Shown one piece after another: positions 29,652-64,000 of a stretch of 64,000 nucleotides of DNA. The translations under genes and the position numbers were made by a program. The stretch spans positions 434,001-498,000 of the forward strand of contig NZ_RJWA01000003.1 in assembly GCF_003762835.1 (NCBI RefSeq). The letters are read 5' to 3'. Numbering within the stretch: the stretch's first letter is position 1; every line of letters begins with the position of its first letter. This stretch comes from Micromonospora sp. HM5-17 (GTDB lineage: Bacteria > Actinomycetota > Actinomycetes > Mycobacteriales > Micromonosporaceae). The notes below the pieces were generated by a model. It saw only the letters and a list, made by a program, of their open reading frames with translations. It had not been told where the DNA came from and searched no databases.

Positions 29652-29783
29652 CGGAACCTCCGCGGTGTCGGTGTCGTCGGCCGGTCCGGCCGGCCGGGTG
29701 CCGGCCGGAGATCGGATCGGACGGGATGTCGATCACACAGGCTAAAAGTGCAACGTCGGCGAGGGCTGCCATGATTCCTACCT

Positions 29784-32051
29784 GTGGCGGCTGACGCAGA
29801 CGTGGAACGGATCCTGGCCGGGCTCGACCCCGAGCAGCGCAGCGCGGTGACCGCGCCGGCCGGGCCGGTCTGCATCCTGGCCGGGGCCGGCACCGGCAAG
29901 ACCCGGGCGATCACCCACCGGATCGCGTACCGGGTGCGCAGCGGCCAGATCGCGGCCGGGCACGTCCTCGCGGTCACCTTCACGGCGCGGGCGGCGGCGG
30001 AGATGCGGGCCCGACTCGGCGGTCTCGGCGTTCCCGGGGTGCAGGCCCGGACCTTCCACGGCGCCGCCCTCCGACAGGTCCGCTACTTCGCCCCCCGGCT
30101 GCTGGGTGGGCGGGAGATGCCGGAGCTGCTGGACAGCAAGGTGCGGCTGGTCACCCTGGCCGCCGCCCGGGCCGGGCTGCGCACCGACCGGGCCGCCGCC
30201 CGCGACCTGGCCGGCGAGATCGAGTGGGCCAAGTCCTCGCTGGTCGAGCCCGGGGAGTACGTCGTCGCGGCCGCCAAGGCGGCCCGGGAGACCCCGTTCG
30301 AGCCCGCGAAGGTGGCCGAGGTCTTCGCCGCGTACGAGCAGGCCAAGCGGGCCAACGGGGTGATCGACTTCGAGGACATGCTCCGGGCCGCGGTCTGGGG
30401 CATCGAGGAACACCCGGACGTGGCCGAACAGATCCGCGCCCAGTACCGGCACTTCGTCGTCGACGAGTACCAGGACGTCAACCCGCTCCAGCAGCGGCTG
30501 CTGGAGGCCTGGCTCGGCGGCCGGGACGACCTGACCGTGGTCGGGGACGCCAGCCAGACCATCTACTCCTTCACCGGCGCCACCTCCGGGTACCTGATCG
30601 ACTTCCCTCGCCGGCACCGGAACGCGGTGGTGGTCCGGCTGGTCCGGGACTACCGCTCGACGCCGCAGGTGGTCGGGCTCGCCAACGCGGTGATCCGGCA
30701 GGCCGCCGGCGCCGAGGCTCGGCTGCGGCTGGAGCTGGTCGGACAGCGCCCGCCCGGCCCCGAACCGGACCTGCGGATCTTCCCGGACGAGCCGGCGGAG
30801 GCGGCCGCGGTCGCGGTCCGGTGCCGCGAGCTGATCGCCGCCGGTACGCCGGCACGGGAGATCGCCGTCCTGTTCCGTACCAACGCCCAGTCGGAGGCGT
30901 ACGAGAAGGCGCTGGCCGAGGCGGAGGTGCCGTACCAGGTCCAGGGCGCGGAGCGCTTCTTCGAACGAGACGAGATCCGGCAGGCGATGGTGGCGCTGCG
31001 GGCGGCTACCCGGAGCACGCCCGGGCAGGCACCGCTGGTGCCGGCCGTGATCGAGGCACTCGCCGCGGTCGGCTGGGCGCCGGACCGACCCCCGCCCGGC
31101 GGCGCGGCGCGGGAGCGCTGGGAGGCACTCGCCGCACTGGTCCAACTCGCCGAGGAGTACGCCGCCACGCCGGCCATCGTGCCGGTCGGCGAGGCGGCGG
31201 GCGGGGGGAGGGCGCCGGGTCGCCCGGTGGTCGCCAGCGAGGGGGTCGCCGTCGTGGAACGAGCGATCTCGCTCGCCGACTTCTGCGCGGAACTCGCCCG
31301 GCGTGCCGCCGCCCAGCACGTCCCGACGGTCGAGGGTGTGACGCTCGCCTCGCTGCACTCGGCGAAGGGGCTGGAGTGGGACGCGGTGTTCCTGGTCGGG
31401 CTCTCCGACGGGACGCTGCCGACCAGCTACGCCAGGACGGCCGAGCAGGTGGAGGAGGAGCGGCGGCTGCTCTACGTCGGCCTCACCCGGGCTCGGGAGT
31501 TCCTCTGGCTGTCGTACGCCCAGGCCCGGTCGCCCGGGGGCCGGACCCGACGCCCGTGCCGCTTCCTGCCCCAGTTCGACCGTTCCGGCGGCGGGCGGGC
31601 GGCCGGCCGGGGGACGGACGGCGCGACGGGCCGGAAGGCCGACCGGGCGCGCAACCGGGTCGTCTCCTGCCGGGTCTGTGGTGCGACCCTGCTCTCCGGC
31701 GCGGATCGCAAGCTGGGCCGGTGTGCGGACTGTCCCTCGGACCTGGACGAGGGGCTGTTCGACCGGCTCCGGGAGTGGCGCAGCCGGGTCGCCGGGGCGC
31801 AGAAGGTCCCCGCGTACGTGGTCTTCACCGACGCCACCCTGGTCGCGCTCGCCGAGCGCCGGCCGACCCGGTCGGAGGAACTGCTCGCCATCGCCGGCAT
31901 CGGCCCCCGCAAGCTCAACCTTTACGGCGACGCGGTGCTCGCGCTGATCGACGGCTCCGAGGTCGACGACGTGCTGATGTCGGCGGAGCCCGGGAGCGGG
32001 GCGACGGCCGACGGAGTGGTTCCGGAAGAGACTTCTGTCATCCGGCCGTAA
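29784..32051 (+). CDS. uvrD2: UvrD2-type DNA helicase with tetracysteine and HRDC domains
   Basis: 755 residues from GTG 29784. Superfamily 1A motifs: Walker A AGAGTGKTRAITHR (about 33), motif II DEYQDVNPLQ (about 226), GDASQTIYSFTGA, and LHSAKGLEWDAVF. Two CxxC pairs follow at about 629-650 (CRVC...CADC), then an HRDC domain (about 675-740, ELLAIAGIGPRKLNLYG). This order is specific to the mycobacterial UvrD2 type, a 3'-5' helicase that is essential in M. tuberculosis as I recall. The tetracysteine probably binds zinc. The stop codon lies within the start of the whiB7 promoter region. Confidence 0.92.
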   Translation: MAADADVERILAGLDPEQRSAVTAPAGPVCILAGAGTGKTRAITHRIAYRVRSGQIAAGHVLAVTFTARAAAEMRARLGGLGVPGVQARTFHGAALRQVRYFAPRLLGGREMPELLDSKVRLVTLAAARAGLRTDRAAARDLAGEIEWAKSSLVEPGEYVVAAAKAARETPFEPAKVAEVFAAYEQAKRANGVIDFEDMLRAAVWGIEEHPDVAEQIRAQYRHFVVDEYQDVNPLQQRLLEAWLGGRDDLTVVGDASQTIYSFTGATSGYLIDFPRRHRNAVVVRLVRDYRSTPQVVGLANAVIRQAAGAEARLRLELVGQRPPGPEPDLRIFPDEPAEAAAVAVRCRELIAAGTPAREIAVLFRTNAQSEAYEKALAEAEVPYQVQGAERFFERDEIRQAMVALRAATRSTPGQAPLVPAVIEALAAVGWAPDRPPPGGAARERWEALAALVQLAEEYAATPAIVPVGEAAGGGRAPGRPVVASEGVAVVERAISLADFCAELARRAAAQHVPTVEGVTLASLHSAKGLEWDAVFLVGLSDGTLPTSYARTAEQVEEERRLLYVGLTRAREFLWLSYAQARSPGGRTRRPCRFLPQFDRSGGGRAAGRGTDGATGRKADRARNRVVSCRVCGATLLSGADRKLGRCADCPSDLDEGLFDRLREWRSRVAGAQKVPAYVVFTDATLVALAERRPTRSEELLAIAGIGPRKLNLYGDAVLALIDGSEVDDVLMSAEPGSGATADGVVPEETSVIRP

Positions 32052-60982: not shown

Positions 60983-60988
60983 GTGGTC

Positions 60989-61711
60989 ATGTGTGGCAGG
61001 TACGCGACGACCCGGAGCGCGGCCGACCTCGGCGCGCTGTTCGAGGCGTACGACGACACCGGTGACCAGCTCCGTCCCGACTACAACGTCGCACCCACCG
61101 ATCCGGTGCCGATCGTCCGGATCTCCGAGGCGACCGGCGGTTCCGTGCTCTCGGTCGCCCGGTGGGGACTGCTTCCGCCCTGGGCGAAGGACGCCCGGGT
61201 CGGCGCACGCATGATCAATGCCCGGGCCGAGACGGTCGCCACGACGCGGGCGTACGCCTCCTCGTTCGCCCGGCGTCGCTGCCTCGTCCCGGCCGATGGC
61301 TGGTACGAGTGGGTGCGTCGGGGCGGTTCCCGGCAGCCGTATTTCATGACCCCCCGGGACGGCTCGGTGCTCGCCTTCGCCGGGCTTTGGTCGGTCTGGA
61401 AGGGCGCCGATACCCCGCTATTGACCTGCAGCATCGTCACCACGGCCGCGCTCGGCGACCTCGCTGCGGTGCACGACCGGATGCCGCTGCTGCTGCCTTC
61501 CGACCGCTGGGCCGACTGGCTGGCCGGCGATGGCGAGCCGGACGCGCTCCTCGCCCCGCCACCCCCGGAATGGTTGGCGGGACTGGAGATTCGACCGGTC
61601 GGAAAGGCGGTCGGCGACGTACGGAACAACGGCCCCGACCTGGTCGCCGCCGTTCCCGCCCCGCCGCTGCGCGCGTTGCCGGAAGAGCCCGCGGTATCGA
61701 CATTGTTCTGA
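60989..61711 (+). CDS. SRAP (HMCES/YedK) abasic-site DNA-protein crosslink protein
   Basis: 240 residues from ATG 60989. The start is decided by chemistry: SRAP needs Cys2 exposed after Met removal, and this start gives MCGRYATTR, while the upstream GTG 60983 would bury it. Catalytic residues are in place: Cys2, Asn77 (MINARAE), Glu107 (GWYEW) and His in VHDRMP. It crosslinks to abasic sites in single-stranded DNA, protecting them during replication. The leaderless -10 supports the start. A WhiB gene follows after 200 nt. Confidence 0.94.
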   Translation: MCGRYATTRSAADLGALFEAYDDTGDQLRPDYNVAPTDPVPIVRISEATGGSVLSVARWGLLPPWAKDARVGARMINARAETVATTRAYASSFARRRCLVPADGWYEWVRRGGSRQPYFMTPRDGSVLAFAGLWSVWKGADTPLLTCSIVTTAALGDLAAVHDRMPLLLPSDRWADWLAGDGEPDALLAPPPPEWLAGLEIRPVGKAVGDVRNNGPDLVAAVPAPPLRALPEEPAVSTLF

Positions 61712-61799
61712 GCGGCGAACCACGCATTCGCGTGCACCGATTTGACACCCTTCGAGGTGGAAAGTCGTACGGAGTTTCTTAAACCTTTGCGGCTAACCC

Positions 61800-61829
61800 T
61801 TGTCACCCATCGTGAGAGTGCGATAGAAC
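61800..61829 (+). promoter_or_regulatory. Candidate promoter of the WhiB gene
   Basis: TTGTCA (61800-61805), 18-nt spacer, TAGAAC (61824-61829), about 80 nt before the start codon in an AT-richer stretch. Confidence 0.4.
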
Positions 61830-61911
61830 ACAGCGCCGGCAGTGGATGTCAGCTCGCATGGGGTGAGCGACGTCCACCGATCTTCGTCGGTCCCACGGGG
61901 GAGGTGGGTGA

Positions 61912-62316
61912 ATGACACGGGCGCGCATGCCACGCCCGCACGAGGTTGCCGCGGCACGACGAGACCCGAGGCTGATTCGGGCCCTCAACGAGCGGCGCCT
62001 CGACGACGCCTGGCGGACCAGGGGGGTATGTCAAAGCGTAGACCCGGAGACGTTCTTTCCGGCGCCGAGCGAGCCGGCCGACTCTGCGGTGGCGCTGTGC
62101 CGCACCTGCGACGTGCAGGGGCCGTGCCTGGCGTGGGCTCTGGAGGTGGGTGACTGCCACGGCGTCTGGGGGGCCACCACGCCGCGTGAGCGCCGGGCGA
62201 TGCTGGTCGCCTGGCGGGACCAGGTCGAGGCCGACCCGTCCGCGGCCGGCGACGCCGGTCCGCCGGTCCGAGACCGGCTGCTGACCCTCGCGCCGGTCGG
62301 CTCCGGCCGTCGCTGA
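61912..62316 (+). CDS. WhiB-family transcription factor
   Basis: 134 residues from ATG 61912, with GGGGGAGG upstream. The iron-sulphur Cys set is Cys40, Cys63, Cys66 and Cys72 (CRTCDVQGPC), followed by GVWGATTPRERR. There is no AT-hook, so it is not WhiB7; the sub-type cannot be fixed from sequence alone. The 39-residue N-terminus before the first Cys is longer than in WhiB1. It is likely to bind the primary sigma factor and respond to redox or NO. Neighbours (SRAP, SigR) support a stress-response setting. A strong hairpin follows at 62387. Confidence 0.9.
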   Translation: MTRARMPRPHEVAAARRDPRLIRALNERRLDDAWRTRGVCQSVDPETFFPAPSEPADSAVALCRTCDVQGPCLAWALEVGDCHGVWGATTPRERRAMLVAWRDQVEADPSAAGDAGPPVRDRLLTLAPVGSGRR

Positions 62317-62386
62317 CGCCGGGGCCGGAGCGCCGCCGGGACCCCGCGCGGCCGGCCGTCGCCGGCCCGCACCGCCGGATTCGCGT

Positions 62387-62420
62387 ACGGCCGCCGACGG
62401 CTCCGGCCGTCGGCGGCCGT
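62387..62420 (+). terminator. Perfect 14-bp hairpin after the WhiB gene
   Basis: Arms 62387-62400 and 62407-62420 are exact reverse complements with a 6-nt loop (CTCCGG). Confidence 0.7.
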
Positions 62421-62520
62421 CGGACGGGTCGTCGCGCCGCACGGGACCGGCCCGCGACCGCGAGCCCGCCGGCGCTGTTCCCGCGTCGAGGCACCGCACG
62501 CGACCTCCGGTGACCTGCCA

Positions 62521-62526
62521 TACAGT
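62521..62526 (+). promoter_or_regulatory. -10 element TACAGT, leaderless type
   Basis: TACAGT ends 6 nt before GTG 62533. Confidence 0.5.
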
Positions 62527-62532
62527 GGCGCG

Positions 62533-63147
62533 GTGCGCCGCAGTGACGAGATCGACACCCCGCGGGGACCGGCCCGCGTCGCGTACGACCTGCCGTGCCC
62601 TCGTCCCGCGACGCTGCTGGTGCTCGGGCACGGGGCGGGCGGCGGGGTAGACGCGCCGGATCTGCTCGCGCTCCGGGACGCGGCGGTCGCCGCCGGGGTC
62701 GGAGTGGTCCGGGTGACCCAGCCGTACCGGGTGGCCGGGCGACGTGCGCCCGCCCCGGCCGGCCACCTCGACGAGGCCTGGACGGCGGTCGTGACGGCGG
62801 TGCTGCGCCGCTGGTCGCCCCGGCCGACCCTGCTCGTCGGCGGCCGGTCCAGTGGGGCCCGGGTCGCCTGCCGTACCGCCCGCGCCTGCGGCGCCGTCGG
62901 GATCGTCGCCCTGGCGTTTCCGCTGCACCCGCCGGGGAAGCCGGAGCGATCCCGGGCGGCGGAGCTGGTGACGGGGCTGTCGACCCTGGTGGTGAACGGC
63001 GACCGTGACCCGTTCGGCGTACCGGAGGCCGGCCCGGGGATCCGGGTCGAGGTCCGGCCCGGCGAGGGGCACGACCTACGGCGTGATCCCCGGGGCACGG
63101 CCGAGGTGGTGCTGCGGTGGCTGCGCGAGCGGGGCTGGGCGAGCTGA
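62533..63147 (+). CDS. Small alpha/beta-hydrolase of the KANL3/Tex30 type
   Basis: 204 residues from GTG 62533, no ribosome site, leaderless -10 instead. The fold starts with LLVLGHGAGGGVDAP (oxyanion loop), the nucleophile Ser lies in GGRSSGARVACRTA, the acid in VVNGDRDPFG and the His in GEGHDLRR. The family has no assigned substrate in bacteria. It sits between the WhiB gene and sigR with its own promoter and terminator. Confidence 0.85.
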   Translation: MRRSDEIDTPRGPARVAYDLPCPRPATLLVLGHGAGGGVDAPDLLALRDAAVAAGVGVVRVTQPYRVAGRRAPAPAGHLDEAWTAVVTAVLRRWSPRPTLLVGGRSSGARVACRTARACGAVGIVALAFPLHPPGKPERSRAAELVTGLSTLVVNGDRDPFGVPEAGPGIRVEVRPGEGHDLRRDPRGTAEVVLRWLRERGWAS

Positions 63148-63329: not shown

Positions 63330-63355
63330 GGAATGCGCCACCGGTCGGTTGTGTT
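63330..63355 (+). promoter_or_regulatory. SigR/SigH-type promoter before sigR
   Basis: GGAAT (63330-63334), exact 18-nt spacer, GTT (63353-63355) in GTTGCT. This is the known SigR consensus GGAAT-N18-GTT and implies that the sigma factor amplifies its own gene under thiol oxidation. Confidence 0.8.
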
Positions 63356-63633
63356 GCTACCCGGCGGAAGCACCCGAGCGCGAGGGGGTTGAACCGGTGT
63401 CGACCGAGACGCGGAGCCTGGAGTACGGCCGCGAGACGCGGCGTCCCGACCGGAGACGGGCCGGGCCGGTCTTCCGGTCTCCTGGCGACAGAGCTCCGGC
63501 GTACCCCGGTGCCCCGCGAACCGAATCGCCCGGCCGTGGTTTCCGCGTATCCTCGGCGGGACAGCCGACTCGGGTCGCGGCGGCGGTACCGGCCGTGGCG
63601 CCGACCCGGTATCGAGGCGAGGGGGGCGCGCGG

Positions 63634-64000
63634 TTGACACGACCGGAGAAAACGGACGAGCGTACGGACGAGCGTCGAGCCCGGTTCGAGCGTGACGCGC
63701 TGCCCTTCGTCGACCAGTTGTACGCGGCGGGCCTACGGATGACCCGGAACCCGGCCGACGCCGAGGATCTGGTGCAGGAGACCTTCCTGAAGGCGTTCGC
63801 CGCGTTTCACCAGTTCGAAGAGGGCACGAACCTCAAGGCCTGGCTCTACCGCATCCTGACCAACACCTACATCAACTCCTACCGTCGTCGGCAGCGGCAG
63901 CCGGTGCAGGCCCCGACCGAGGAGATCACCGACTGGCAGCTCGCCGAGGCCGAGTCGCACACCTCCAGCGGCCTGCGCTCGGCCGAGACCGAGGCGCTGG
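63634..64000 (+). CDS. sigR: SigR/SigH-type ECF sigma factor, 3' end outside the window
   Basis: The window ends in this gene; 122 codons are visible from TTG 63634, which has AGGGGGG 7 nt upstream. Region 2 is typical of SigR/Sig[20 protein letters not shown], then [37 protein letters not shown] and [10 protein letters not shown]. It should be held by a zinc anti-sigma factor (RsrA/RshA), probably encoded just past the window, and released by disulphide stress. The frame is open upstream without a stop to 63361, and GTG 63397 with GAGGGGG 8 nt before it would give a form 79 residues longer, like the known unstable SigR' isoform. Confidence 0.92.

Follow-up and report, generated by a model that had tools for sequence, protein, structure and literature searches.

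A probable two-promoter, two-start sigR gene with a longer SigR' isoform in Micromonosporaceae

The closest described counterpart of the locus considered here is the sigR-rsrA pair of Streptomyces coelicolor, for which the isoforms SigR and SigR' were reportedly set out by Kim et al. in 2009. In Streptomyces, promoter p2 gives rise to SigR', with 55-58 extra residues, and promoter p1 to a stable SigR; SigR' has a half-life of about 10 min and is degraded by Clp proteases (as stated in PMC5472188 and PMC4921905). PMC5472188 also describes control of Streptomyces SigR by IF3, for which the GTC start is needed. A second counterpart is the mycobacterial pair SigH-RshA, an orthologous sigma/anti-sigma pair, and the protein model for the sigma factor, TIGR02947, is itself named SigH_actino. 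A literature search for Micromonospora or Micromonosporaceae together with SigR returned work that, by title and abstract, concerns other subjects; Kim et al. 2009 and 2012 fell outside that search.

The window, that is the whole stretch of 64,000 nucleotides analysed, spans positions 434001-498000 of a 6.17 Mb Plantactinospora genome and ends within sigR (Table 1). The sigR product matches TIGR02947 at 350.2 bits (cut-off 251.55), the mark of a SigR-type ECF sigma factor, and the rsrA product matches TIGR03988 at 109.1 bits (cut-off 62.5). Judged by sequence, sigR and the adjoining rsrA are orthologues of the SigR-RsrA redox sigma/anti-sigma pair. The layout is that of S. coelicolor: a predicted SigR-dependent p2, an upstream in-frame start, a putative SigR-independent p1 within the coding sequence of the extension, and rsrA as the next gene. 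An earlier note on this DNA had claimed that Micromonosporaceae have the same parts as Streptomyces, and p2, the long start, the frame and the p1 -10 element do all prove to be conserved in relatives. There are differences, however. The S. coelicolor extension has 58 residues and an ATG start, compared with 79 residues and GTG here, and the short form begins with GTC in Streptomyces but with TTG here, so that the GTC start for IF3 control is absent. The extension was rightly described as rich in Arg and Pro (16 and 10, respectively, among its 79 residues). Its description as longer holds against S. coelicolor, but lengths within the family vary, from 42 to 107 residues in 45 sampled members, counting as far as the codon that aligns with TTG of the window.

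We conclude that the window sigR is very probably a two-promoter, two-start gene of the SigR/SigR' kind. At rest, a transcript from p1, with TATCCT as its -10, would be translated from its first start, TTG 63634, to give SigR, which would be held by RsrA. If induction follows the Streptomyces pattern, thiol oxidation would free SigR, which would then read p2 (GGAAT-N18-GTT); the longer p2 transcript would carry GTG 63397 and give SigR' with its 79 extra residues, amplifying the response. From the Streptomyces precedent we infer that the long form is unstable in the window's lineage also, in which case rapid proteolysis of SigR' would later shut the response down.

Table 1. Features of the sigR region. 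Positions are those of the window, except where locus L009 is named.
Feature	Position	Strand	Basis
sigRp2-type promoter GGAAT-N18-GTT (GGAAT 63330-63334, 18 nt spacer, GTT 63353-63355), predicted SigR-dependent and autoregulatory	63330..63355	+	same element 5' of sigR in relatives
RBS of long form, GAGGGGG, 8 nt before GTG 63397	63382..63388	+	sequence; Shine-Dalgarno-like purine run and start in relatives
N-terminal extension of SigR', GTG start, 237 nt (79 codons) to TTG 63634, stop-free	63397..63633	+	frame kept among relatives
TATCCT, predicted -10 of sigRp1 (short-form promoter), embedded in extension coding sequence	63548..63553	+	conservation; Streptomyces-like placement
RBS of short form, AGGGGGG	63620..63626	+	sequence
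sigR, short form from TTG, running past the window end to L009:1460	63634..64000	+	TIGR02947
rsrA, RsrA-type zinc anti-sigma factor gene, just beyond the window	L009:1467-1751		TIGR03988

The genes around sigR (window 60983-63147 and L009:1886-2426) comprise those for an SRAP peptidase, a WhiB-like protein and an alpha/beta hydrolase in addition to sigR and rsrA. On the 3' side of rsrA is a tiny Lys/Arg-rich reading frame, which we take to resemble ribosomal bL37, followed by a gene for a biotinyl-domain protein; the neighbourhood as a whole presumably resembles that of mycobacterial sigH.

SigR is present in 159 of 160 sampled genomes of the family, representing 44 genera, among the matches listed. 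From these matches 128 genomes were taken which, with the window genome, give 129 sigR upstream regions from 39 genera. Loci near contig ends and extra members of well-sampled genera were left out, the choice being made before any upstream DNA was fetched, though open-frame lengths could be seen among the matches. The set from outside the family comprises 54 sigR upstream regions from 19 other families, made up of 40 fetched regions and 14 of 27 further loci, the other 13 being excluded because their reading frame was not located by the script.

The autoregulatory promoter predicted in the earlier note is present in the window, and GGAAT-N18/19-GTT lies 5' of sigR in 126 of the 129 family regions, with a spacer of 18 nucleotides in 77 and of 19 in 49. 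The regions without it (L065, L076 and L091) are all three fetched members of a single genus, g25; they still have a PEW motif and the p1 element described below, and L076 has GGAAC-N19-GTT at -157. Outside Micromonosporaceae the element precedes sigR in 39 of the 54 regions, and over the whole window genome it occurs 59 times, compared with 7 for the reversed pattern.

For the start of the long form, transcription from p2 was assumed to begin about 7 nt after GTT, and a start was called where a start codon with a purine-rich RBS, permissively defined, lay within 110 nt of this point and after the last in-frame stop. The 125 regions considered exclude the three without GGAAT-N18/19-GTT and L121, which is discussed below. 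By this rule 119 of 125 genomes have a start and RBS in the SigR frame (95 GTG, 21 ATG and 3 TTG), at a median distance of 35 nt from the predicted transcription start, and none is found in the other six; the same rule finds starts in only 17 and 5 of 125 genomes in the other two sense frames. In the window itself the claimed GTG 63397 is in place, with GAGGGGG well spaced before it. A SigR-frame stop falls between the predicted transcription start and the SigR start in 41 of 125 genomes. In 17 of 19 Micromonospora and two Plantactinospora (L010 and L011) such a stop lies two codons ahead of the long start codon, so that the site of the start is bounded.

Does the upstream frame exist for a reason, or is it open simply by chance in GC-rich DNA, the region being a plain 5' leader from which a single SigR is made? 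The earlier note had pointed to the openness of the 79-codon frame. The frame is indeed stop-free as far as TTG, but its openness carries no weight by itself, since none of the three sense frames has a stop within these codons and, in the SigR frame, 162 codons above TTG contain no stop; we therefore rejected it as evidence, and the case rests on the relatives. Two further properties sit comfortably with a leader open by chance. The pN/pS of the extension, from protein-guided alignments of 16 genera, lies between 0.29 and 0.81, with Plantactinospora at 0.64, and the GC content at the three codon positions is 0.71, 0.65 and 0.77 in extensions, compared with 0.66, 0.42 and 0.93 in sigR cores. 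With pN/pS high and the GC pattern only weakly coding-like, constraint on the peptide is loose.

The frame itself tells a different story. Between a point 36 nt after the predicted transcription start and the first codon of SigR, 120 of 125 genomes have no stop in the SigR frame, compared with 12 for the +1 frame, 45 for the +2 frame, and 54, 85 and 41 for the three antisense frames. Three of the five SigR-frame exceptions (L129, L131 and L132) have a longer leader, with the stop ahead of the start codon. Counted from 40 nt after the transcription start, 8254 codons contain 5, 211 and 110 stops in frames 0, +1 and +2, respectively. Congeners with 70% identity or more were aligned as nucleotides, up to six per genus and with the pairs within a genus not independent; of 87 internal gaps in the extension, 78 are multiples of three, compared with one of 35 in the promoter-leader stretch used as control, which has a spacing constraint of its own. 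Of 15 genera, 13 show strictly the highest variability at the third codon position, one is tied and one is an exception; once p1 and all that lies downstream of it are removed, the third position leads in 9 of 9. For Plantactinospora, frame 0 is without stops in 7 of 7 genomes, and all nine gaps before p1, in 19 pairs, have a length of 3. The alignment of the extension among relatives, proposed in the earlier note, did not reveal frequent stops or frameshifts: L121 (genome G074) is the only frameshifted genome of the 129, with one G fewer than three congeners. The deficit sits in the G run of the short form's RBS and may be a real loss, a slippage-prone site or a sequencing error. That the SigR frame is the one kept open across relatives, that indels come mostly in threes, and that a start and RBS recur at a similar distance from p2 in this frame and rarely in the others all speak against a leader open by chance, which we regard as very improbable. 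By comparative sequence criteria, selection is keeping the extension in frame with SigR.

Within the extension, TATCCT is the best conserved piece of the whole sigR upstream region. The longer form GTAT[CT]CTC could be placed in 104 of 129 genomes, and 103 of these have it in phase with SigR, its distance from a fixed SigR codon taking 20 values between 69 and 168 nt; L044 also has an in-frame p1 element and falls outside the 104 through a misplaced anchor. Genera without GTAT[CT]CTC have other TAnnnT sequences in the same part, such as TACCCT, TAACCT, TAGGCT and TAGAGT. Read as protein, the element is VSSA, and its valine codon GTA makes up 163 of 805 GTN codons in extensions (start codons included) compared with 9 of 801 in sigR cores. 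Since GTA is rare in the cores and common in the extensions, the constraint at p1 acts on the DNA.

Could the conserved blocks be nothing more than DNA elements, p1 and other regulator sites, with peptide conservation simply following from them? The codon usage at VSSA is what this would produce. Three observations run counter to it: the TATCCTC sequence stays in phase with SigR over its 20 distances, the excess of third-position variation holds upstream of p1, and LLxxPEWPA, the peptide motif best conserved in the family's extension, varies freely at synonymous positions. We find this explanation scarcely credible.

For the earlier suggestion that the short form is transcribed by way of TATCCT, the conservation of this element and its placement in Streptomyces-like genomes give strong support at the level of sequence. 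Family f17 has TATCCTC or TATTCTC in 10 of 10 regions; its AGGAGGTG site, its use of GTC as start (one of the ten has GTT) and the N-terminal sequence of L251 lead us to regard it as Streptomycetaceae. By the primer coordinates in PMC4921905, sigRp1 of S. coelicolor initiates some 41 nt ahead of the GTG annotated as start, a point that in L251 lies 7 nt after the last T of TATCCT. The SigR of L251 begins TGTDAGTEH, the N-terminus given for S. coelicolor SigR in PMC5472188; we treat L251 as Streptomyces-like rather than as proven S. coelicolor. As a class-wide element the p1 -10 had to be rejected: TAT[CT]CTC occurs in 14 of 54 regions outside the window's family, ten of them in f17 and four among the other 44, and in none of the eight f2 or five f18 regions. 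A check for a WblC site found no conspicuous AT-rich run before p1 in Plantactinospora, though on this measure the Streptomyces-like regions are hardly distinguishable. About 45 nt 5' of TATCCT, a number of genera, among them Micromonospora, g30, g34 and g1, have a GTGAGCAC-N-GGCAC-like block that may be the site of a regulator or else a motif of the peptide (VSTxT).

Short-form starts were assigned in 128 of 129 genomes, all except L044 with its misplaced anchor; 65 are TTG, including 7 of 7 Plantactinospora, and 63 are GTG. None of the 128 is ATG, and none is a non-canonical GTC or GTT. We considered avoidance of ATG as a sign of translational control but found the argument weak, as GTG also prevails among the rsrA starts of these loci (58 GTG and 22 ATG, a comparison that is incomplete with 49 of 129 unassigned).

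What, then, does the tail do? We detected no homology between the family's extension and that of Streptomyces (hhalign probability 0.1%, 45 sequences against 9, the latter being nine of the ten f17 extensions). In f2, taken to be Mycobacteriaceae, the upstream peptides look by eye unrelated to those of the window's family, and GGAAT-N18/19-GTT is present in 0 of 8 regions, with a looser GGAA[TC] form in four of the eight. As between Streptomyces and Micromonosporaceae, the comparison indicates that the layout, with p2, a long start and p1 inside the coding sequence, has been kept rather than the peptide.

In 103 of the 129 family genomes, drawn from 32 of the 39 genera, the extension carries LLxxPxW, mostly as LLxxPEWPA; with one sequence per genus it is found in 30 of 38, compared with at most 1 in 300 rounds of shuffling. 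Its synonymous codons vary freely, the Pro codon being CCG in 49, CCC in 46, CCT in 5 and CCA in 3, in a motif whose Pro and Trp were required by the search pattern. It is absent from all seven Plantactinospora (g1), and also from genera 11, 21, 24, 31, 34 and 38; judged by eye, some of these genera retain a degenerate version. A quick sigR tree covering 74 sequences of the family, in which support is poor for 30 of the 73 inner branches, has the motif in its earliest branches and requires at least seven changes of it. An AlphaFold2 model of one Micromonospora SigR' places a helix at residues 7-22, just before the motif, with low-to-moderate confidence; the remainder of the extension is of low confidence, with no confident structure (pTM 0.35), and shows nothing interpretable as docking on the sigma factor. 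LLxxPEWPA may serve as a signal for degradation or for docking.

A class-wide LLxxP(EW) motif looked plausible by eye and was not upheld, [LVI][LI]..P being found in 3 of 15 families compared with 0.8 in shuffles (largest 5). The shorter [PL][DE]W occurs in 12 of 45 non-family sequences compared with 0.7 in shuffles (largest 4), by eye mostly in the Streptomyces-like family. Nor is the extension a module reused elsewhere; in a profile search of 10 genomes, with 150 candidates each, sigR was the best match every time, and the next match elsewhere had an E-value of 0.026.

Loss of the motif raises the possibility, which we think on the unlikely side though worth keeping in mind, that the long form is made but stable in Plantactinospora, where the LLxxPEWPA helix is lost, or that the extension serves another purpose, such as tuning the binding of RsrA or RNA polymerase. 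Such an explanation conflicts with the SigR/SigR' scheme solely at its last step, proteolysis. It draws on the absence of LLxxPxW from every Plantactinospora when so many genera have it, early sigR branches included, and on the failure to detect homology with the extension of Streptomyces, for which instability has been measured. Set against it, LLxxPEWPA is itself a conjectural degradation signal, Plantactinospora still shows constraint on the frame, and a disordered tail rich in Arg and Pro may be short-lived even where it has no motif. A more speculative suggestion, which we consider rather improbable, is that Micromonosporaceae evolved their own helix-plus-LLxxPEWPA signal for turnover of the long isoform or for a partner, and that Plantactinospora and some neighbours have lost the signal and kept the isoform, with the negative feedback arm rewired.

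For the preferred scheme, in which the long form is both made and degraded, a Clp loop is unsupported here, since a quick scan found no convincing SigR-type promoter at clp genes and none in the sense direction at three clpP loci; the scan did find one GGGAAC-N16-CGTT, in a clpC-like locus (L321).

The sequence comparisons indicate that Streptomyces is not alone in having a longer, self-amplifying form of SigR, and that such an isoform occurs widely among Micromonosporaceae; an annotation of sigR that starts at TTG would miss the 79 upstream codons. The more interesting question is the role of the tail, whose sequence is lineage-specific and whose family-conserved part has been lost in the window's genus. 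Lineages with and without LLxxPEWPA offer a natural experiment for finding the part of the tail that governs how long the sigma factor lasts.

Finally, the window has two occurrences of GGAAT-N18/19-GTT, where chance would give 0.47, and two or more arise in 10 of 100 shuffles. The second match, GGAAT-N19-GTT at 29752-29778 on the minus strand, points away from a reading frame, helicase-like by eye, that starts at 29784 on the plus strand, and is probably due to chance.
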